This document shows, one piece after another, positions 1 to 55,314 of a stretch of 64,000 nt of DNA. Position 1 is the stretch's first letter, and each line of letters starts with the position of its first letter. This stretch comes from Bacteroidota bacterium (GTDB taxonomy: Bacteria; Bacteroidota; Bacteroidia; Chitinophagales; Saprospiraceae). The translations under genes were made by a program, and so were the position numbers. The stretch is taken from NCBI GenBank assembly GCA_017857395.1, contig JAFMDF010000015.1, forward strand, positions 1 to 64,000, given 5' to 3'. Below the pieces are notes generated by a model. That model did no database searches. It was not told the origin of the DNA and saw only the letters and a list, made by a program, of their open reading frames with translations.

Positions 1-1167
1 CCAGTGGATACGACTATCACGCCAGTAGATACGACTATCACACCAGTGGATACGACTATCACACCAGTGGATACGACTATCACACCAGAATTGTGTATCG
101 ACTTTATAACAGAGGAGGTTTTATTTGCGATGATTAATCGTTGTGATTCCTTAGCGACTTTCTGTATGGATATTCCGTTTGAGGAAATAAATGACTATGC
201 GATTACCGTTGATGGGCAAGTTTATCAAGGTGATTTAATGAATTGTACAGGAGGAACGGCGATTCAAGTTGGAGTAGGAGGATTTAGTTTCCTATTTGAG
301 CACCTAACTACAGGTTGCAAAGACAGTATTGTTTTGGCAGTAACTTGTGCAACTAGCCCTAGAGAGGAAGTAATAACCCTAGAGGAAGGGGAAACCGAAA
401 TTTATTGCCCCGCATCTGACGAATTAATCGGAGATATAATCACTATCAATAACGCTTGTCCTGAAGAGTCTGGTATTTTGACCATGCTGACTTTAGATAC
501 GGTTGACTATTGCATTAATGTAACTGGACTTTTGGCGGGCGAAGAAAAAGCCTGTTTGGTTTTATGTGATGCAAACGGCATTTGCGATACGACCTATTTG
601 ATTATTCGGGTGACCCCTAAACCATTATTAAAGCCAATAGCAGAAAGAGATATTGATACGACGGAGGAGTCAACCATCATCACAATTGATGTTTTAGCCA
701 ATGATTCTATCTTTGGTACGCTACAAAATATGGAGATTTTAGCGCAACCCGAAAATGGTACAGCTACCTTTAATCTGGATAATAGGATTACTTATATCCC
801 AAATGATGGCTTTTGCGATTCAGGACAACCCGATTTAATCATGTACGGTATTTGTAATGATAATGGTTGTGATACCGCTATGGTCGAAATATGGGTGTCT
901 TGTGGGAAATTGGACATTAAAAACGGTTTCTCTCCAAATAACGATGGCATTAATGATTATTTTAGAATTAGCGGCGTGCAAAATTTTCCAGATAATAAGG
1001 TGACCATATTTAACCGTTGGGGCTTAGAAGTATTCAGTCAGCAAGGCTATAAAAATAGATGGAATGGTACGTTCAAAGATAAAGACTTGCCTGATGGTAC
1101 TTATTTCTACATATTTGATGATGGAAAAGGAAAGAAATATTCTGGTTGGGTGCAGATAAATAGGTAA
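1..1167 (+). CDS. Large secreted T9SS cargo protein, 3' part (type B sorting domain)
   Basis: The reading frame is open from base 1, so the gene begins upstream of the window; the GTG at 4 is not a real start. The visible product begins with four copies of the heptapeptide VDTTITP. A cysteine-rich stretch follows, then an Ig/cadherin-like module (around residues 215-300, with DVLANDS and NGTATF, typical of tandem extracellular repeats). The C-terminal ~85 residues start at GFSPNNDGIND and contain FNRWG and the DGTYFY strand. These are hallmarks of the gliding-motility-associated C-terminal (CHU_C, T9SS type B) domain that directs export through the type IX system and surface attachment. The nearby porP/sprF gene fits, because type B cargo is usually paired with PorP/SprF proteins. 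The function of the exported part is unknown. Confidence 0.9.
   Translation, partial: PVDTTITPVDTTITPVDTTITPVDTTITPELCIDFITEEVLFAMINRCDSLATFCMDIPFEEINDYAITVDGQVYQGDLMNCTGGTAIQVGVGGFSFLFEHLTTGCKDSIVLAVTCATSPREEVITLEEGETEIYCPASDELIGDIITINNACPEESGILTMLTLDTVDYCINVTGLLAGEEKACLVLCDANGICDTTYLIIRVTPKPLLKPIAERDIDTTEESTIITIDVLANDSIFGTLQNMEILAQPENGTATFNLDNRITYIPNDGFCDSGQPDLIMYGICNDNGCDTAMVEIWVSCGKLDIKNGFSPNNDGINDYFRISGVQNFPDNKVTIFNRWGLEVFSQQGYKNRWNGTFKDKDLPDGTYFYIFDDGKGKKYSGWVQINR
4..87 (+). repeat. 21-bp in-frame tandem repeat, four copies
   Basis: Four consecutive 21-bp units, at 4-24, 25-45, 46-66 and 67-87, each encode VDTTITP. They differ only at third positions (gtg/gta, acg/aca). The array reaches the window edge and may continue upstream. 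The Thr/Pro-rich unit suggests an extended linker between domains of the secreted protein. Confidence 0.95.
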
Positions 1168-2093: not shown

Positions 2094-2658
2094 ACCATAA
2101 TTTTTAAAATAAAAAACACAAAATTATAACTTTATAAGTTAGGATAGGTTGAAACTATTTGAGTGAGCTACAGATTCATAGAAAATAAGTAGAGTATGCA
2201 TATTTTTAAAGCGTTTCTATGGTTATATTGTTTACGAGCTGCTAACCATATAGCAATATAATCATATAGCCATTGTCTTATGTAAAACCCACTAAATTGT
2301 AGCAGATTAAACTATTTTTGCCTAAAGGGAGTCGTGAAAGAAGGAGGATTAAAAACGTCTGCTCAGCGCCAATTAGATAAAAAATTGGTATTCTAAACTA
2401 AAATGGGAAATAAAAGTTATAATTTGAACAACTTTGTAGTAGATTAAAACTTTAAAAAGTAACGAGGAATCAATAATTATCGTTTAATTTGTGGAATCGT
2501 ATTGATAATCAAAGAATATAGTGTTTCAGATGCAACTTAAAGGCGAATATTATTACTCTTATCTAAAAGAAAGTAGGGATTTGCCTTAGAAAGTATCCAT
2601 GCTTGAAATATTAAATATTTAGCACAATTCACTAAAATTCACCATCACGACGTCCGAT
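2094..2658. other. Divergent 565-bp intergenic gap
   Basis: Gap between engB (leftward) and the porP/sprF gene (rightward); it must hold promoters for both. An imperfect inverted repeat lies at 2217-2269, with ctatggttatattg pairing with caatataatcatatag, and 'atatagc' is repeated in the right arm. No convincing TAnnTTTG box or coding region was found. Confidence 0.45.
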
Positions 2659-6436: not shown

Positions 6437-8086
6437 ATGTCTATTCCTAAGGATCCCAGGCAGTTGATGATTAACCTAATGTATCTGGTATTGACCGCAT
6501 TATTAGCGTTAAATGTTTCTGCCGAAGTGATGAACGCATTTAAGACTATTGACGATAGTTTAGTTAAATCAAATACAACTACTAATAAAGCAATTGACGA
6601 ACAAGCATCTGCTTTGAATGCTTTATTAGGCGAACAATCAAAAGAAAAATTTAAGCCGTTAGGTATTGCTGTGACAGATATTCGTGCAGAAATCGCAGGT
6701 TTTAGCGATTATGTAGAAACGATTAAAAATGATTTAATTGATGCTGCGGGTGATAAAAATGGTGAAGTTGATGACGCCGATTTTCTTTATCCTGAAAATC
6801 CTGCTAAGAAAATCATCAAGGGAAAGAAGAATAAAGATGTTACCACAAATATGTTGGTAAAAGAGGGAAAAGGAGATGAATTAGCAACTAAAATTGCGGA
6901 GGTTAGAAAAAATATTGTTGATATTTATACCAAAGTAATCAATGATAATAAAGAAACCTTTGGATTTGTAAAAGGGGGAAAAGTAGATCAAGCAGCTGCA
7001 GATGCTAATATTGCTTCTTTTGCGGAAAATATTTCTTTAGATATTGACCAAAATTGGGAAGAGCAATCAGATGGTGATAAAAAAAGTTGGGCGGATTTCC
7101 GATTCCGACAAATGCCTTTAATCTCTGTATTACCTTTATTGACTAAATTTCAAACAGATGCTAAAAATGCGGAAGCATTAGGTGTGGGTAAATTAGCAGA
7201 GTTAGTAGGTGGTAAGCAGATTGTCTTCAACCAGTTCTTTCCTGTAATCAACGCTAAAAAGGCTTATGTCATTAAAGGCGGAAAATTTGAAGCAGAAGTA
7301 TCTTTAGGTGCTTATAGTTCTGATATTCCACCTGCAAATATTAACCTTACTGTAAATGGTAAAAGATTGCCAGTTGGGAAGGATGGTAAAGCAGTCTTTT
7401 CAGATGCAGCTTCAGGCTTAGGTACTAAAACATTAAATCTTAGTGCGACCGTAACCAATCCTTTGACAGGAGAAGTAACGACTTCAAAGTCTACGTTTGA
7501 TTACGAAGTAGGAGAAACTTCTGCAACGGTATCTGCTGACAAAATGAATGTATTCTATATTGGAGTAGATAATCCAATTTCTGTTTCTGTTGCAGGGGTG
7601 TCTAGTAACGCCATAAAAGTAAACTGTGCTGGCGGAGGTTGTACCTTAACAGGTGGAAAAGGTAAATACGTTGTGAAGGTAAAGAAGCCAGGAGATGTTA
7701 AAATCAATATTTCTGGTGGTGGTTTGTCTAAGTCTGCTGATTTTAGAGTAAAGCGTATTCCTGATCCAGTAGCTAAGCTTGGTAAAAAGCAAGACGGTTC
7801 AATGGGAAATGGAGAATTTAAGGCACAAAGAGGGGTGATTCCTTGGTTAGAAGGCTTTGATTTTGATGCGAAATGTAAAATTCAGGGGTTCAATTTAGTT
7901 AGAGTTGCTAAACGACAAGATCCTGTTGCTAGTAATAACCCTGGTGGAACATTTAATCAAAAATCACTTCGATTAATACGAGCTGCTAAACCAGGTGATA
8001 CTTATTACTTTGAAAATGTGAAGGCTACTTGCCCAGGTGATGCTGCTGGTAGAAAGATTAACTCTATGGTCTTTAAAATTAGATAA
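6437..8086 (+). CDS. gldM: Gliding motility protein GldM (T9SS periplasmic shaft)
   Basis: GldM spans the periplasm from the GldL motor to the GldK/GldN ring. This 549-residue product starts MSIPKDPRQLMINLMYLV, the conserved N-terminus that enters a single transmembrane anchor (about residues 9-29). A helical periplasmic region follows to around residue 260. After that come several small beta domains: one around INAKKAYVIKGGKFEAEVSL, one around TVSADKMNVFYIGVDNPISV, and a C-terminal domain around RIPDPVAKLGKKQDGSM. This order matches known GldM. It lies downstream of gldL and upstream of gldN. Confidence 0.95.
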   Translation: MSIPKDPRQLMINLMYLVLTALLALNVSAEVMNAFKTIDDSLVKSNTTTNKAIDEQASALNALLGEQSKEKFKPLGIAVTDIRAEIAGFSDYVETIKNDLIDAAGDKNGEVDDADFLYPENPAKKIIKGKKNKDVTTNMLVKEGKGDELATKIAEVRKNIVDIYTKVINDNKETFGFVKGGKVDQAAADANIASFAENISLDIDQNWEEQSDGDKKSWADFRFRQMPLISVLPLLTKFQTDAKNAEALGVGKLAELVGGKQIVFNQFFPVINAKKAYVIKGGKFEAEVSLGAYSSDIPPANINLTVNGKRLPVGKDGKAVFSDAASGLGTKTLNLSATVTNPLTGEVTTSKSTFDYEVGETSATVSADKMNVFYIGVDNPISVSVAGVSSNAIKVNCAGGGCTLTGGKGKYVVKVKKPGDVKINISGGGLSKSADFRVKRIPDPVAKLGKKQDGSMGNGEFKAQRGVIPWLEGFDFDAKCKIQGFNLVRVAKRQDPVASNNPGGTFNQKSLRLIRAAKPGDTYYFENVKATCPGDAAGRKINSMVFKIR

Positions 8087-8098
8087 AATTTTAGAATA

Positions 8099-8178
8099 CA
8101 GAAGTCAGACCACTTTGTTGTCAGAAGTCAGATAATCTCGCTTCTGACAATTAATTTTAATTTATGGTTTGACTTCTG
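8099..8178. repeat. Nested inverted repeat built from a CAGAAGTCAGA unit (gldM-gldN gap)
   Basis: Outer arms cagaagtcagacca (8099-8112) and tggtttgacttctg (8165-8178) pair with one mismatch. Inside them, ttgtcagaag (8118-8127) and cttctgacaa (8141-8150) pair perfectly. The same 'cagaagtcaga' unit is repeated within the left arm. It sits between two genes that must be co-expressed, so strong termination here would be odd. Confidence 0.7.
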
Positions 8179-8296
8179 ACCTCTAAAAATAATATGTCAG
8201 CCTTTTAGCAAAAAGTATTTTTAAGCATAATTTTTGCAGCTTTAAAGGCGTTTTAGCATTGTAATTTTTTGTAAAATCTATCTATTAAAATCGATT

Positions 8297-9166: not shown

Positions 9167-9169
9167 ATA

Positions 9170-9195
9170 GTAGCTTGGGCTTCTAGCCCGAGTAG
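9170..9195 (-). repeat. Dispersed 26-bp hairpin repeat, copy 1 (reverse orientation)
   Basis: The reverse complement of this segment matches 9380-9405 with only two differences and 20856-20881 with a few more. Each copy is itself palindromic around TTCTAG (gcttgggc / gcccgag). It starts 4 bp after the gldN stop. Confidence 0.75.
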
Positions 9196-9203
9196 CAAGT
9201 ATT

Positions 9204-9256
9204 TTAAAAAATAAAAAGCCTCAACTGATATATTCGGTTGAGGCTTTTTATTTTTT
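9204..9256. terminator. Strong bidirectional intrinsic terminator after gldN
   Basis: A perfect 15-bp stem, ataaaaagcctcaac (9211-9225) with gttgaggctttttat (9237-9251), has an 11-nt loop. It is flanked by A-rich sequence on the left and a T tract on the right, so it can stop transcription from gldN (+) and from maf (-), which converge here. Confidence 0.85.
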
Positions 9257-9379
9257 AACTGTAGTTCGGGCATCTTGTCTAGAACTTCTTATTTGCTAAA
9301 TTTTCAGAATTTAGTAAATCTTCTTATTTTCAGTCAGCGTGTTGGGTATCCGCTTTGAGTCATCGCTACCATAAATTCA

Positions 9380-9405
9380 CTACTCGGACTAGAAGTCCAA
9401 GCTAC
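9380..9405 (+). repeat. Dispersed 26-bp hairpin repeat, copy 2
   Basis: Core actcggactagaagtccaag contains the hairpin ggact-aga-agtcc. It abuts the maf stop codon (9406-9408) and mirrors copy 1 at 9170-9195, so copies 1 and 2 form arms of a larger inverted repeat around the terminator. Confidence 0.75.
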
Positions 9406-10533: not shown

Positions 10534-10624
10534 AGAGGTAATAGAGGTTACAAGGTGTAGAGGTTACAAGGCATAGAGTTGAATACCTTGTAACCTCTAT
10601 GTCTTGTAACCTATTAACCTCTTT
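10534..10624. repeat. Palindrome with arms made of AGAGGTTACAAGG units
   Basis: The left arm (10534-10571) carries the unit agaggttacaagg twice and a shortened copy. The right arm (10584-10624) carries its complement ccttgtaacctct in the same staggered order and runs into TTTTTT. Another locus at 20183-20270 uses the same unit. It sits in the gap between two co-directional minus-strand genes. Confidence 0.8.
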
Positions 10625-11774: not shown

Positions 11775-11830
11775 GATATGGTTAAGTGTAAATGGCGAAA
11801 ATGAGACAATCATTTACTGCCAAAAAATAA

Positions 11831-11886
11831 AATAAAAACCTCCAAACTGCACGAAATGTTTTACGGAACAGTTTGGAGGTTTATTT
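11831..11886. terminator. Intrinsic terminator, bidirectional
   Basis: A perfect 14-bp stem, aaacctccaaactg (11836-11849) with cagtttggaggttt (11869-11882), has a 19-nt loop. A-rich sequence lies on the left and T-rich on the right. On the minus strand it would end the transketolase transcript before the trans-sulfuration gene. Confidence 0.75.
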
Positions 11887-11999
11887 ATATCAAGTAAGAA
11901 AAAGAGATTTAAGACGAGTTAAATTGGTCTAGTACTAAAGATTTGTTGCTTACGCTAATACCTCTATACCTTTTAACCCTTATACCTCCATGCCTTTAT

Positions 12000-17246: not shown

Positions 17247-18707
17247 ATGTCCTGTCATAATTACGAAAAAATCCACTCCAGAAGGTCTTTCTTAGCTAAA
17301 ACATCCATGGGCTTAGGGGCAGCAGCCTTGTCTTCTTTTTTAAACCCCATAACAGCTTTAGGAAATAATCAGGCGACGAATAATTTGTCCTTTAATGGCG
17401 GTGTATTAGGCAAACCTCATTTTGCTCCAAAAGCCAAAAGGGTCATTTATTTATTCCAAAGTGGAGGCCCTTCTCAATTAGATTTATTCGACCCTAAACC
17501 CCTGTTAAAGAAAATGAATGGAGAAGATCTGCCAGATTCTATTCGAGGCGGACAACGCTTAACAGGCATGTCAGGCGGACAAGCAAATTTCCCATTAGCA
17601 GGGTCTATTTTTGACTTTAAACAAAGAGGGGAGAGTGGCGCTTGGGTAAGTGAATTGATGCCACATACGGCTGAGATTGTGGATGATTTATGCTTTGTGA
17701 AGTCGATGTACACCGAAGCAATTAATCATGATCCCGCCATTACTTTTATGCAAACAGGTAGCCAATTACCCGGTCGGCCATCGATTGGTGCTTGGTTAAA
17801 TTATGGCTTGGGTTCAGCTAATGAAAATCTGCCAGGATTTGTAGTTTTAGTAACTAAAAATAAATATGGTCAACCGTTGTATTCTCGTTTATGGGGAAAT
17901 GGGTTTTTGCCCTCAGAACATCAAGGTGTACAATTTAGAGCAGGAAAAGACCCTGTTTTATACTTAAATAATCCCGATGGAATGACGAATTTATCGCGTC
18001 GAGATCAATTGGATTATTTAAAAAAATTGCAAGAAATACAATTTGAACAAATCGCTGACCCTGAAATAGAAGCACGAATAGCCCAATATGAAATGGCTTA
18101 TCGGATGCAAACTTCTGTTCCCGAAGTAACCGATACATCTGGGGAACCAGATTATATTTACGACATGTATGGCGAAGACAGTCGCCAACCTGGCACCTAT
18201 GCTGCCAATGCTTTATTAGCTCGACGATTAGTAGAAAAAGGCGTCAAATTTATCCAATTATACCATCAAGGTTGGGATCAACATGGTGCTTTGCCTAGCG
18301 CCATCAAAACGCAATGTAAGGAAACAGACCAAGCAACGGCTGCTTTAATTACCGACTTAAAACAAAGAGGATTATTGGAAGATACTTTGGTGATTTGGGG
18401 TGGAGAATTTGGCAGAACCAGTTACTCCCAAGGCAAATTGACGGTCGATAATTATGGTAGAGACCATCACCCAAAATGTTATACGATGTTTATGGCAGGA
18501 GCAGGTGTTAAGGCAGGATTTTCTTATGGTACAACGGATGACTTTGGCTATAATGTACAAACGAATGGCGTGCATGTCCACGATTTTCAAGCTACTTTAA
18601 TGCATTTATTAGGGATTAATCACGAGCAATTGACTTTTAAATTTCAAGGAAGACGATATCGTTTGACGGATGTACATGGAAAGGTGGTGAAGGATATATT
18701 AGCATAA
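17247..18707 (+). CDS. DUF1501 domain protein (sulfatase/phosphatase-like fold)
   Basis: A 486-residue partner of the preceding DUF1553 protein. The N-terminus has a twin-arginine-like motif ([21 protein letters not shown], residues ~11-31), suggesting Tat export. DUF1501 features include [38 protein letters not shown], the HQGWDQHG segment, GGEFGRT and NYGRDHHP. The Asp/His pattern resembles metal sites of the alkaline phosphatase/sulfatase superfamily to which DUF1501 is related. The two genes are 57 bp apart and probably form an operon. The activity is unknown. Confidence 0.93.
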
Positions 18708-18737
18708 GTAATGCTGAAAAAATAACTTGAACAACTA

Positions 18738-18768
18738 TAATTCGTGGGGATAATAAATTCGTGGGGAA
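18738..18768. repeat. Two tandem copies of aattcgtgggga
   Basis: The unit aattcgtgggga occurs twice in the gap between the DUF1501 and esterase genes. It is related to the atccgtgg units at 22640-22880 and 56066-56115. Confidence 0.6.
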
Positions 18769-18869
18769 TTTAATATTAGATGTTCGACTTATTTTTTATT
18801 CGTTACTAAGTTTAATATTTTTTAGTATTTTCGTACTAATTTTTACAAATATTTAAAATACTTAATATA

Positions 18870-20182: not shown

Positions 20183-20270
20183 AGAGGTTCAAAGGTTCAA
20201 AGGTAACAAGGTATAAAGGTTGGTAGAAGCTACCCTTTGTACCTTGTTACCTCTAAACCTTGTAACCTCT
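20183..20270. repeat. Palindrome of AGAGGT(T/A)ACAAGG units between convergent genes
   Basis: The left arm 20183-20221 reads as staggered copies of agaggttcaaagg / aggtaacaagg, and the right arm 20232-20270 as their complements. Both arms are made of the same unit as 10534-10624. It fills nearly the whole gap between the esterase gene and the NUDIX gene and could act as a terminator for both. Confidence 0.8.
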
Positions 20271-24460: not shown

Positions 24461-24475
24461 CCAGTTTGTCAGTTA

Positions 24476-24613
24476 CCGGTTACCAGTTACCAGTTGCCCG
24501 CAACTTGGGTTATTAGGTAAATTCATTCAAGTCTTTCCTCATAAATTTAGGATAAGTTTGGATGACTACATTGAATTTACAGCCTTTAACCCGTAACTGG
24601 CAACTGGCAACGG
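24476..24613. repeat. Palindrome of CAGTTACC / CAGTTGCC units
   Basis: The left arm (24476-24498) contains ttaccag repeated, e.g. ggttaccagttaccagttgc. The right arm (24593-24613) contains the complement gtaactggcaactggcaacg. The loop is about 94 nt. It lies between cystathionine beta-synthase and the sigma factor gene. Confidence 0.7.
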
Positions 24614-43918: not shown

Positions 43919-45592
43919 ATGTCCAACGAAAAAGTTATCTTTTCCATGGAACGGGTCACAAAAACATACCCACCAAAAAAACAAGTTTTAAAGAATATTT
44001 GGCTATCTTTTTTTTACGGTGCAAAAATTGGTGTGCTGGGATTAAATGGTTCTGGTAAGTCTTCTTTATTAAAAATTATTGCAGGCATCGATACCAATTT
44101 TGAAGGTCATGTGGTCTTTGATAAAGCTTATAAAATTGGTTATTTAGAACAAGAACCAACTTTAGACGAAAGTAAAACAGTTCGAGAAGTAGTCGAAGAA
44201 GGCGTACAAGAAGTAGTCGATACTTTAAAAGCTTACGAAGAGTTGAATGCCAAGTTCGCTGAACCGATGAGTGACGATGAAATGAATGCATTGATTGAAA
44301 AACAGGGCGAGTTAACCGATAAATTAGACCATTTAAATGCCTGGGAATTAGACAATCGGTTGAATACGGCAATGGATGCTTTGCGTTGTCCACCTGATGA
44401 TAAATCAGTAGCCGTATTATCTGGAGGAGAACGTCGCCGAGTGGCTTTATGTCGCTTATTATTAAGTAATCCAGATATTTTATTATTAGATGAACCTACG
44501 AATCACTTGGATGCGGAAAGTGTACATTGGTTAGAGCAATATTTACAAAATTTTCCTGGAACAGTCATTGCGGTGACGCACGACCGTTATTTCTTAGATA
44601 ATGTAGCAGGTTGGATTTTAGAGTTAGATAGGGGAGAAGGGATTCCTTGGAAAGGTAATTATTCTTCTTGGTTGGAGCAAAAAGCCAACCGCTTAGCAAA
44701 GGAAGAAAAAACAGAAAGCAAACGTAGAAAAACCTTACAACGAGAATTGGAATGGGTTAAAATGGCACCAAAAGGTCGTCGAGCAAAAGGGAAAGCAAGA
44801 TTAAGTGCTTATGATAAATTAGCCAATGAAGATGTGAAAGACAAAGAGAAGAAGTTGGAATTATTTATTCCGCCTGGAGAACGTTTGGGAGATGTTGTGG
44901 TAGAAGTAGAAGGCATTAGTAAAGCTTATGGGGATAAGTTGCTTTATGAAGATTTAACCTTTTCTATACCAAGGAATGGAATTGTTGGGGTAATAGGAGC
45001 GAATGGTGTAGGTAAGAGTACTTTATTCAAGATTATCATGGGCTTGGAACAGCCAGATAAAGGAAAAGTAACGATTGGCCCAACTGTGGACATTTCTTAT
45101 GTAGACCAAAGTCACAAGGATTTATTACCCGAAAAAACAATTTATGAAGTAATTTCTGGAGGTAATGACATCATTAAAGTAGGTAATTCAGAAGTCAATG
45201 CTAGAGCGTATTTAAGTAAATTTAATTTCGGGGGCAGTGACCAACAGAAAAAATTAGGCGTTTTATCAGGTGGAGAACGAAATCGTGTCCATTTGGCAAT
45301 GACCTTAAAAAATGGTGGTAATTTAATTTTATTAGATGAACCGACGAATGATATTGATATCAATACCTTACGAGCATTAGAGGAAGCCATTGAAAATTTT
45401 GCAGGTTGTGCCGTTATTATTTCTCACGACCGTTGGTTTATTGACCGTTTAGCGACGCATATTTTAGCTTTTGAAAATAATAGTGAAGTCGTCTTTTTTG
45501 AAGGAAATTATTCTGATTATGAGAAAAATAGAAAAGAACGATTGGGCGATATCGCACCTAAGCGACCTCGATTTAAGAATGTGATAAATTAG
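43919..45592 (+). CDS. ettA: Energy-dependent translational throttle protein EttA (ABC-F)
   Basis: A cytoplasmic ABC-F ATPase that binds the ribosomal E site and gates entry to elongation according to ATP/ADP level. The 557-residue protein has two ATPase domains without membrane segments: Walker [10 protein letters not shown] (41-49) and GANGVGKST (second domain), signatures [11 protein letters not shown] and [11 protein letters not shown], and Walker [14 protein letters not shown] and [12 protein letters not shown]. The EttA-type arm insertion ([29 protein letters not shown]) and the linker with [17 protein letters not shown] are present. Length and order match EttA very well. It converges with the M24 peptidase gene. 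Confidence 0.95.
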
Positions 45593-45600
45593 CAGTAAAA

Positions 45601-45693
45601 CAGTTTGCAGTAGGCAGTATTACAGTAGGCAGAATTAGTAGGACCAACTACCAAACTGTAATACTGCCTACTGCCTACTGTAATACTGCCTAC
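45601..45693. repeat. Palindrome of GTAGGCAGTATTACA units between convergent genes
   Basis: A perfect 23-bp inverted repeat: the left arm 45610-45632 starts gtaggcagtattacagtagg and the right arm 45671-45693 is its exact complement. The units cagtaggcag and cagtattacag recur, so alternative pairings exist (19 bp between 45608-45626 and 45656-45674). It fills the gap between ettA and the M24 gene. Confidence 0.9.
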
Positions 45694-45697
45694 CGTA

Positions 45698-47032
45698 TTA
45701 CCGACTCCGTGGAATAGATAAAATCTCCTCCATACGACTATCCAAGAAATAGAATCCATCTTTTCCATAAACACCATCCTCTTCTAGCATAATTCGGACA
45801 AGTTTTCCCCATTCTGGCACATCCGTAGCAGCAAATAATTCGATAGAATAAGCCGTATTGGGAAATAAGGGATAATCGCCTGTGCCTTTTACGCCTTGCT
45901 GTTTGTCCCACATACCAATAGCTGGTCCAGCTGCATGTCCATGCAAACCAATGGGATGCGTATAAATAGAACCATTAATGCCTTCTGCTTTTGCTTGTGC
46001 TAAAGCGGCTGAAAGCATCTGATTACCCGTTTTTCCTGTTGAGAATTGACTGGTCAAAATATCTTGTAGGCGATTACCCGTTTTTAAGGCAGCTTGTAAA
46101 TAGGCAGGAACTTCTTTTTCATTCGCCTTTAGTACATAAAAATGTTGTTGTTGGTCTGTATTCAATCGCAGATAAGTGATACCAAAATCTACGTGTAATA
46201 AATCACCTTGACGGATAATTTCCTGATCTGGCCGACGAGAAAAAGACCGTAAAAACTCTTGATTGCCTTCTGCTGCTCGCTGTACAGAAACCGAAGGATG
46301 AAACCATGTTTTTAAGCCATAGTCAATCACCAATTGGCGCAAACGCCATTCTACATCCGTAGTAGTGGTTACGCCTGGATGAATATTTTTTTCAGATAAA
46401 CCTTCTTGTAAAATTTTGTGGCCTAAATGGCAAATCATTGGATAAATCTGCAATTCCTTTTCTGAACGGGTTTCCAACCACGCAATAGACAGTCTTTCCG
46501 CAGAAATTACTCTATTCTTAAAACCAGTAGGCAATTTGGACATGAATTGGTCATGTTCCGTATCGACTAGACCATCTGCTAAAGCAAAATAATCTGATTT
46601 ATTAATCCCAATTTTCGTAGGATTTCTTTCTTTTATTACCTCCATCAAAGCTTCCCACTGGTCAGGGAAAACATTCAAATCCCAAGCGCCTTTTAATAAC
46701 TTACCTACATCATACCGAGCGATGGCAATTTTTTCTAAAGGTGCATCTCCTCCCTTATCATAGAAAACCATAATCGTACGTCGTCTAGCAGATAACCAAG
46801 TACTCGGTAACATGGTTTTCATCACAGGGTCTTCATTGTATTCTCTAGAGATAATGACCCACATATCAATGCCTTCTCTACGCATTAAAGTAGGTAGCAA
46901 ATTATCCAAGCGGTCTTCTAAAATTTCGTCTATGACTTGCGCTCTTTCTTGTATAGGTAAGATAAGGGTATGTTGTGCAGTTAAATCAGTGAAAAAGAAA
47001 GCAAGGAAAAAAATAGGAAATAATCTTAACAT
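45698..47032 (-). CDS. Secreted M24 family metallopeptidase (Xaa-Pro aminopeptidase-like)
   Basis: From the ATG at 47032 (444 residues; a TTG 24 bp upstream would extend it) the product has a signal peptide (LFPIFFLAFFFTDLTAQ). The N-terminal creatinase-like domain includes IDMWVIISREYNEDPV. The C-terminal pita-bread domain carries the metal ligands in the order Asp (HVDFGIT), Asp (LNTDQQQH), His (GLHGHAAG), Glu (YSIELFA) and Glu (LEEDGVYG). All five ligands are present, so it is likely active, cleaving an N-terminal residue next to proline or a related peptide outside the cytoplasm. Downstream of two rhodanese genes on the same strand. Confidence 0.9.
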   Translation of the reverse strand: MLRLFPIFFLAFFFTDLTAQHTLILPIQERAQVIDEILEDRLDNLLPTLMRREGIDMWVIISREYNEDPVMKTMLPSTWLSARRRTIMVFYDKGGDAPLEKIAIARYDVGKLLKGAWDLNVFPDQWEALMEVIKERNPTKIGINKSDYFALADGLVDTEHDQFMSKLPTGFKNRVISAERLSIAWLETRSEKELQIYPMICHLGHKILQEGLSEKNIHPGVTTTTDVEWRLRQLVIDYGLKTWFHPSVSVQRAAEGNQEFLRSFSRRPDQEIIRQGDLLHVDFGITYLRLNTDQQQHFYVLKANEKEVPAYLQAALKTGNRLQDILTSQFSTGKTGNQMLSAALAQAKAEGINGSIYTHPIGLHGHAAGPAIGMWDKQQGVKGTGDYPLFPNTAYSIELFAATDVPEWGKLVRIMLEEDGVYGKDGFYFLDSRMEEILSIPRSR

Positions 47033-47112
47033 GGTAGTATTAGTTAGTTTTGACAATTATAAAAATACGATTGCCAAAGCTAAACCAATCCCATCTAAAA
47101 AAGAAATTGTAC

Positions 47113-52773: not shown

Positions 52774-52998
52774 CTGGTTTAAGGGCTATTTCCCTATTAA
52801 AAAAATCGACAAATTTATATGACTAGTTGACAGTTAGTTTATTTTAAATTGAAAATGTAAAATAAAAATCTCAAAATCTAAAAATGTAAAATGTAATAAA
52901 TAATTGATTATGAATAAGTTAATACTGTTTTGTTACTTTTAAATTTTTAATTTAGATTTGTGAACTACTTTTATACAATTGATAAACTTGTCAAAAAA

Positions 52999-55011: not shown

Positions 55012-55314
55012 TGTTTTTTAGTCTCGTAAGTTCTAGGGCAAAAATAAACTAACCTCTTTTTTACCACATAGTCACAATAGTATTTTCACATAGTACATAT
55101 AGTTTTACTTATTAGATAGTTGTATTTAGTTCGTAAAACTATGTTTACTATGTGTTTTTCACTATATGACTATGTGGTAAAAACTGTAAAAATTGTTACC
55201 TTAATTTTGTCGAATTACTTAGGTAAAAGGAAAAGGGAGTAGGTGTAGCAGTTTTATGAAAATAAACTGCTGCACCTGCTATAAAGGTAAAGATAAAAAA
55301 TAATAATATACCTT
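55012..55314. other. 303-bp gap dominated by a long palindrome
   Basis: Gap between two leftward genes. It is largely occupied by the inverted repeat at 55058-55183. The remainder is AT-rich without a coding region. Confidence 0.6.
55058..55183. repeat. 51-bp arm palindrome of CACATAGTA units
   Basis: The left arm 55058-55108 (starting tttttaccacatagtc) and the right arm 55133-55183 (ending actatgtggtaaaaa) pair over 51 bp with few mismatches around a 24-nt loop. Within the arms cacatagt / cacaatagt / cacatagtacatatagt repeat. This is the longest such structure in the window. Confidence 0.88.

Follow-up and report, generated by a model that had tools for sequence, protein, structure and literature searches.

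The STRR sequences of cyanobacteria are intergenic arrays of heptamers. Three heptanucleotides of Calothrix are cited in the report on the GGGAATC heptamer arrays of Xanthomonas, where the latter are described as dispersed between genes, located near stop codons and rare in divergent gaps, with approximately 70-75 inverted pairs per genome and with the prominent repeats at differing genes in two related species (PMC4692102). The P6b stem-loop of the Nostoc tRNA-Leu intron is, as described, a degenerate heptanucleotide hairpin in which the word class has been swapped wholesale with the stem kept (PMC4476775, PMC3488679). The TAACTGA repeats of the Beggiatoaceae are reported to be located, for the most part, immediately upstream of start codons, and one inverted case alone is given (PMC4679880). 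REPs are described as dispersed extragenic palindromes with family- or species-specific sets, which are found in tandem and convergent gaps near stop codons (PMC3733652). Finally, inverted repeats have been described as overrepresented both between genes and downstream of stop codons (PMC4060949, PMC13155455).

We analyzed a stretch of 64,000 nucleotides (hereafter the window; contig JAFMDF010000015.1 of assembly GCA_017857395.1, a member of the Saprospiraceae) in which several intergenic gaps contain what we denote stuttering palindromes, that is, inverted repeats with arms that are themselves degenerate tandem repeats. The first-pass annotation of the window knew of no named family of this description; published relatives do exist, namely, as far as the cited descriptions go, the inverted heptamer arrays of Xanthomonas (PMC4692102) and the trnL-intron hairpin of Nostoc (PMC4476775, PMC3488679). 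The repeats analyzed here resemble the former in being intergenic 7-nt arrays with inverted pairs (period 7 in 44 of 69 arrays, a partner in 30 of 69), but the Xanthomonas arrays, as described, involve one G-rich word per genome that was studied for G-quadruplexes (PMC4692102), whereas here there are many words in clade-private pools, and orthologous slots retain their hairpins as the words of these change. With respect to the G-quadruplex, GGG and CCC are absent among the 25 of 45 words listed. Nostoc P6b, in the published accounts, is one stem in a group I intron with two word classes, in contrast to the dozens of words found here at a large number of intergenic sites near gene 3' ends. Degenerate tandem 7-nt repeats between genes, as in the STRR sequences, are present, and intergenic heptamer arrays with CAGTTA/TAACTG-like words are a further likeness to both STRR and the TAACTGA repeats; unlike the Beggiatoaceae repeats, as these are described, the arrays here form paired palindromes at 3' ends. 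With REPs, the stuttering palindromes have in common that they are dispersed, extragenic and near gene 3' ends. However, REPs are described as 20-40 bp long, with a GTAG/CGTC tag and a conserved sequence (PMC3733652), whereas the stuttering families are longer, of variable length and without fixed ends, and neither the tag nor a fixed-length conserved sequence was found in their arms as judged by eye. Another, non-stuttering family of the same genome looks GTAG-like by eye. Eight paired palindromes of the form GTAGCTTGGACATC...GTCCGAG, resembling GTAG-tagged REPINs, are present in the sample described below (L036:9728, L039:19591, L127:10107, L134:2657 and others), and related-looking pieces occur at 9167-9405 of the window. 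The stuttering hairpins thus look like a little-described variant of the known bacterial repeat hairpins; a repeat system that combines a large vocabulary, pools private to clades and orthologous 3' slots in which the hairpin persists as its word is replaced was not found in the open-licence literature searched, outside of which most subscription journals lie.

The window belongs to contig C68 of a genome of 10.15 Mb in 631 contigs (G000), and the comparison involved its congeners G001-G008; all relatives are draft assemblies. The census sample comprised 60 loci (918 kb, 9% of the genome), namely the window, 19 stretches of contigs matching the focal palindrome and 40 contig starts picked by number. 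Genes were called with a home-made gene finder, and gaps of 20-1500 nt were counted. Palindromes were scored as unbranched and imperfect (match 3, mismatch -4, gap -8), with those scoring at least 45 considered strong, and the expected numbers were taken from shuffled gaps; for the gaps of Table 1, significance was assessed against 1000 dinucleotide shuffles each. The thresholds were set in the course of the analysis.

Inverted repeats had originally been noted in seven gaps of the window (Table 1). Six of these beat the shuffles (p = 0.001-0.005), the exception being the one at 2217-2269; predicted folds contain stems at all seven places. The accompanying description of the arms as tandem microrepeats stands for some of the gaps: in a test for periods 6-9 over the whole gap, 20183, 24476 and 45601 are clear (p = 0.001 each), 10534 is borderline (p = 0.057) with arms that repeat at lag 16 (p = 0.01), 55058 is weak (p = 0.025 for the whole gap and 0.54 for the arms alone), and 8099 is not significant (p = 0.235). 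The focal palindrome begins at the stop codon of the ABC-F-like gene and ends just short of the 3' end of the convergent M24-peptidase-like gene; its arms (45592-45626 and 45655-45689) are 89% complementary, and a second arm pair of 23 nt (45610-45632 and 45671-45693) is 100% complementary. Stretches like the 8089-8188 palindrome are found at several further places in the genome. The loop of the 24461-24607 palindrome contains approximately 100 nt that are absent from the G006 ortholog; given that the loop of the latter is 3 nt, this insert (24495-24600), which bears a hairpin of its own (24517-24533/24564-24580), looks like a hairpin gained or lost within a hairpin loop. The G000 loci searched, which cover part of the genome, contain no second copy of the insert, and its assignment as a mobile element was accordingly rejected. 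At the very start of the window (1-88), an open frame contains a 21-nt tandem repeat of 4.2 copies.

Table 1. Genes, palindromes and comparison hairpins of the window
Feature	Coordinates	Strand	Remarks
Upstream gene, ABC-F-like ATPase (two ABC_tran and ABC_tran_Xtn)	43919..45592	+	domain matches; orthologs found
Convergent gene, M24-peptidase-like	45698..47056	-	domain matches
gldM-like gene	6437-8086		directly before the 8089 palindrome; suggestive of Bacteroidota
Focal stuttering palindrome, CAGTAGG/CAGTATTA words	45592..45693		occupies almost the entire gap of the convergent pair; p = 0.001
Stuttering palindrome, AGGTTACA-type octads	10534..10622		p = 0.001 vs shuffles
Stuttering palindrome, convergent gap, word family common to 10534	20183..20270		p = 0.001 vs shuffles
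Stuttering palindrome, CAGTTACC-type words	24461..24607		p = 0.005 vs shuffles
Nested AGAAGTCAG palindrome, directly after the gldM-like gene	8089..8188		p = 0.004 vs shuffles
Dispersed palindromic element, fixed sequence, TTTTTACCACATAG ends	55058..55183		p = 0.001 vs shuffles
Site of the first-pass annotation, ordinary by shuffles	2218..2266		p = 0.64
Comparison: U-tract terminator-like hairpin	9204..9258		similar in G006 and G002; by test not in G005 and G007
Comparison: terminator-like hairpin (CCTCCAAACTG)	11827..11890		sequence kept in G005 and G002 by test, in G006 by eye

The scan of intergenic DNA for inverted and tandem repeats that had been proposed with the initial description was carried out on the 918 kb sample and detected strong palindromes in 164 of 548 gaps, against 5.0 expected from the shuffles, and arrays of 6-9-nt units in 69 of the 548, against 2 in the shuffled gaps; the objection that random sequence of the same composition might yield similar counts therefore fails. 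The 40 loci that were not chosen by matches agree, with a palindrome in 65 of 261 gaps against 1.8 expected, distributed over 19 of 41 convergent, 41 of 172 tandem and 5 of 48 divergent gaps. Per 10 kb of intergenic DNA, there are 27.9 palindromes between convergent genes, 11.4 in tandem gaps and 5.1 between divergent genes. Within tandem gaps, palindromes with tandem arms are located near the stop codon of the upstream gene, at a mean relative position of 0.29 (n = 22, KS p = 0.007), and the mean for plain palindromes is 0.37 (n = 68, p = 0.003). Tandem arms (p <= 0.05) were detected in 46 of the 164 palindromes, with period 7 in 19 and period 8 in 13. Among the 69 arrays, 44 of which have period 7, an inverted partner in the same gap was found for 30, which leaves 39 unpaired, and a further direct copy for 3. 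The palindromes fall into three kinds, namely plain hairpins (a number of which have U-tracts), fixed-sequence palindromes in dispersed copies, and stuttering palindromes.

Contrary to the initial impression that the repeat unit is mostly private to its locus, the words form families that recur at dispersed sites of a genome and are confined to particular species or clades. A search of the same genome with the 45601 stretch alone yields 94 matches (E <= 10), many of them representing the two strands of one place, and a relative within the 9% sample was found for 30 of the 46 tandem-arm and 38 of the 118 plain palindromes. In the window, 10534 and 20183 belong to one word family, and 8099 and 55058 resemble dispersed elements. 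The vocabulary is wide, given that the 63 arrays of period 7-8 yield 45 distinct consensus words. Word pools were traced for two ABC-F-slot occupants in nine genomes, with both strands counted so that the figures are rough. The G004 occupant has at least 75 matches in G004, at least 8 in G003 and at least 7 in G008, with none among the matches listed in the six others; the G000 occupant has at least 38 matches in G000, at least 28 in G002, at least 14 in G006, at least 12 in G007 and at least 1 in G005, with none among the matches listed in G001, G003, G004 and G008. The element at 55058-55183 has 17 further distinct copies of at least 100 nt that are 76-92% identical (4 in G000, 6 in G005, 6 in G007 and 1 in G006) and, with its fixed sequence, terminal inverted repeats and many copies, is a candidate MITE.

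Several other repeats were observed alongside these families. Palindromes built of AAATCAT words at L129:8583, L131:13280 and L033:5719 have stuttering arms about a partly conserved core, with part of the loop in common (TGTCACG..TTTA..), and L131:13478-13570 matches many contigs of G005 and G007. Positions 18701-18830 of the window are a piece of another dispersed element, with similar stretches in 9 other G000 loci and many G006 contigs, and 52801-52955 has matches on many G002 contigs, frequently at the ends of these; this additional dispersed repeat is located close to a convergent gap with a palindrome.

The CAGTAGG-type palindromes extend far beyond the genus. At least 112 stretches of named genomes contain CAGTAGGCAGTA, 20-50 nt and TACTGCCTACTG, several genomes repeatedly; the records among the matches listed include Leptolyngbyaceae, Mesorhizobium, Hyphomonadaceae, Brevundimonas, Saprospiraceae, Cytophagales, Runella, Prevotellaceae, Chloroflexi, Acidobacteria, Planctomycetes, Nitrospinota, Desulfobacteraceae, Chlorobiota, Acidimicrobiia and others. 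The GC content of the stretches listed is 0.37-0.72, and 110 of the 112 contain a palindrome with a score of at least 45. Among the matches listed, 86 palindromes lie between two called genes, 26 of these in convergent, 55 in tandem and 5 in divergent gaps, compared with shares of intergenic bases of 13%, 61% and 26%, respectively (p = 3e-5 for convergent, 2e-6 for divergent); the remaining palindromes are at stretch edges (21) or within an ORF call (3). This convergent excess and divergent deficit indicate that the positional rule is general. A special meaning of CAGTAGG itself was considered and rejected: among 395 genomes that belong to the phylum of the window, 1 has the exact pattern with a spacer of 5-35 and 2 have a mirror word of the same composition. 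Given that there are about 1170 possible heptads (4^7 over rotations and strands), the sharing of words between phyla may be due to convergence, and we do not claim horizontal transfer. In Mesorhizobium records (L162-L163, L189, L208 and others), CAGTAGG is mixed with GGGAATAGG-type units reminiscent of the GGGAATC repeats of Xanthomonas.

Orthologous gaps were compared, beginning with the one that follows the ABC-F gene, for which close orthologs were found in seven of the eight congeners searched (not in G003), so that eight species including G000 are available. Within 170 nt downstream of the stop codon, seven of the eight have a hairpin at p = 0.003, the minimum attainable with 300 shuffles (p = 0.07 in G007), and tandem structure is present in six of the eight (p <= 0.05). 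Among the 28 pairs of hairpins, clear similarity is confined to G005-G007; that of G005-G008 (p = 0.04) is about the chance level for 28 tests. This slot and the gaps described below support the original reading that the layout and the intergenic position, here at gene 3' ends, are kept while the sequence changes. Outside the genus, a hairpin is present in the slot (p <= 0.05) in 4 of 15 relatives (a sixteenth, ending at the stop codon, was left out). The ABC-F proteins of G000 and G006 are 98% identical and share the convergent neighbor, yet their hairpins differ (CAGTAGG vs GGTTACC/CAGTTGCC). In the 8087-8296 gap, G000 and G006 agree at 97% over the 101 nt that follow the hairpin, yet the G006 hairpin is unrelated; the identity of this flank to G000 is 87.5% over 64 nt for G005 and G007 and 75% over 108 nt for G002. 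The words of which the hairpins in this gap consist are AGAAGTC in G000, G005 and G002, CAGTTGCC in G006 and ATTAGTC-like in G007. The 10534 gap contains AAGGTATA words in G006 and G005 and other words in G007 and G002.

The recurrence of hairpins was tested on 102 pairs from 46 gaps (G000 against G006, G005, G007 and G002), which are not independent. At a score of at least 40, the relative has a hairpin in 32 of 52 cases if G000 has one and in 9 of 50 if it has none (p = 8e-6); in 19 of the 35 cases with nothing similar to the G000 palindrome left, another hairpin is present. The difference depends on the threshold, with 18 of 39 against 15 of 63 at a score of 45 (p = 0.029) and 13 of 37 against 12 of 65 at 50 (p = 0.092), and for tandem gaps alone it is significant at a score of 40 only. 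Ordinary terminators change too, as indicated by the dissimilarity of the 9204-9258 hairpin in G005 and G007.

In convergent gaps, stuttering palindromes sit in place of a U-tract terminator, in the sense of a statistical substitution. With a canonical terminator defined as a stem followed by 6 T of 8, one is found on 5 of 36 strands of G000 convergent gaps with a stuttering palindrome, on 34 of 94 strands without a palindrome and on 34 of 62 with a plain one; the corresponding figures for the relatives are 1 of 28, 11 of 40 and 17 of 36, and pooled, 6 of 64 for stuttering against 45 of 134 for no palindrome (p = 0.0002). When the definition is relaxed to 5 T and a shorter stem, significance is lost for G000 in two of the three length classes; the space left over in convergent gaps that contain a stuttering palindrome is small (median 19.5 nt). 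In tandem gaps, the difference is absent (6 of 24 against 55 of 222).

A drift to G.U on the transcribed strand still pairs in RNA, whereas a drift to A.C does not. Mismatches of the two kinds were compared in tandem gaps, where the transcribed strand is known. Hairpins with a U-tract and a score of 30-60 show 29 G.U against 12 A.C (p = 0.012; 37:20, p = 0.033, for all scores from 30). Among palindromes without a U-tract and with a score of at least 45, the preference is absent (135:150), both in the stuttering subset (36:49, n = 41, p = 0.19) and in the plain one (99:101), and the ratio differs from that of the U-tract control (p = 0.007); an earlier count made without the U-tract split agrees (151:165). 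Thus, there is no sign that the arms without U-tracts are kept as RNA helices, and the proposed selection on RNA folding, which the U-tract hairpins do display, is not supported for the stuttering palindromes. Compensatory change gives no support either: orthologous stuttering arms are mostly unalignable because the words differ, and the alignable copies of the 55058 family, with 15 kept against 18 broken double changes, show no covariation, so that this line of proof was rejected.

What, then, might the stuttering palindromes be? Chance or base composition, which accounts for one of the listed loci (2217-2269), is refuted by the shuffles as an explanation of the 164 palindromes and 69 arrays and has a practically negligible probability. 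We also regard as very improbable that these are ordinary rho-independent terminators, or other structured RNAs selected for folding, that have diverged in sequence. The 3'-end bias, with stem-loops after the stop codon, and the stable predicted folds would suit this interpretation, and termination without a U trail has been described in the report cited here (PMC8355165). Nevertheless, a U-tract adjacent to the stem is generally lacking, with at least 6 T in 6 of 42 tandem-arm compared to 33 of 103 plain palindromes (16 of 42 in a laxer 5-T count, against a background of 25%), RNA pairing is not kept (36:49, as above), none of the known families in Rfam is matched at the gathering score, and the word families are dispersed.

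Two further explanations involve DNA-level change, and we consider each of them unlikely. In one, suggested in part by the first-pass annotation, every locus keeps its palindrome while slippage and hairpin-templated copying rewrite the arms in place until the word has changed. The arrays of period 7-8 are compatible with such rewriting, as is the greater agreement between arms (0.87) than between units within an arm (0.72), seen in 42 of 46 palindromes and biased by the selection on palindrome score, and slippage in place can be seen in one homogenised arm, that of G006 in the 10534 gap. However, the words of the two tested occupants are abundant in their own genomes and absent among the matches listed in four or six of the nine genomes, which speaks for block replacement, and in the 8087-8296 gap the replacement is sharp, adjoining the 97% identical flank. 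The other explanation, to which we assign a similarly low probability, invokes miniature elements of the REP/REPIN or MITE kind moved in trans by a transposase, for example one of the Y1 (RAYT-like) type. The copies are indeed dispersed, 55058 is a fixed-sequence palindrome with conserved ends, the genome contains Y1_Tnp matches (7 over the cut-off, 4 of them strong), and the GTAG-like family of paired palindromes has 8 members in the sample; yet the stuttering families are without fixed length or ends, and no common flanking family is present at the 4 of the 7 Y1_Tnp places inspected, so that a RAYT is not favored as the mover. One stuttering palindrome lies approximately 1 kb from one of the Y1_Tnp matches at these places. 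A mobile element is thus likely in the case of 55058 and unproven for the word-built palindromes.

We lean, by a small margin of confidence, toward the interpretation that the stuttering palindromes represent dispersed families built of words from clade-private pools, which occupy slots at gene 3' ends and are replaced there as blocks. They would constitute many small families of dispersed extragenic palindromes with arms made of 7-8-nt words, and each clade of the genus would carry its own pool of word families. The occupied slots would be densest between convergent genes, close to the upstream stop in tandem gaps and rarest between divergent genes; from species to species, a slot would tend to keep a hairpin, with its occupant giving way, as one block, to another made of words that are plentiful in that genome. 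The swapping of occupants was seen at several gaps, and origin from the own pool for two occupants. The arrays probably grow by slippage of the 7-8-nt units, and, given that the mismatches are symmetric, the arms would come to pair in the DNA itself, through template switching or inverted copying, and would not be tuned as RNA. Considering that, in convergent gaps, the stuttering palindromes stand in place of U-tract terminators, their likeliest role is that of a bidirectional transcription stop or an insulator or, at the minimum, of a tolerated stand-in. Both the copying mechanism and the terminator function are putative.

In a broader and distinctly more tentative reading, which we regard as possible but doubtful, this genus has, at the 3' ends of its genes, slots that retain a hairpin of exchangeable sequence, and DNA-level copying of the lineage's own 7-8-nt words fills them; a like process, with some of the same words, would operate in many phyla, and word-built 3'-end palindromes would be a general class in bacteria. 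If slots and their occupants are indeed separate, closely related species retain a hairpin at a given gene end with its sequence wholly exchanged, so that the needed structure would be separable from the inherited sequence, a natural case of repeat DNA replacing terminators. Such a class would also join the scattered reports on the Xanthomonas heptamers, the Nostoc P6b stem, STRR and the TAACTGA repeats. The symmetry of mismatches and the substitution of terminators provide two simple tests that are applicable to any genome.
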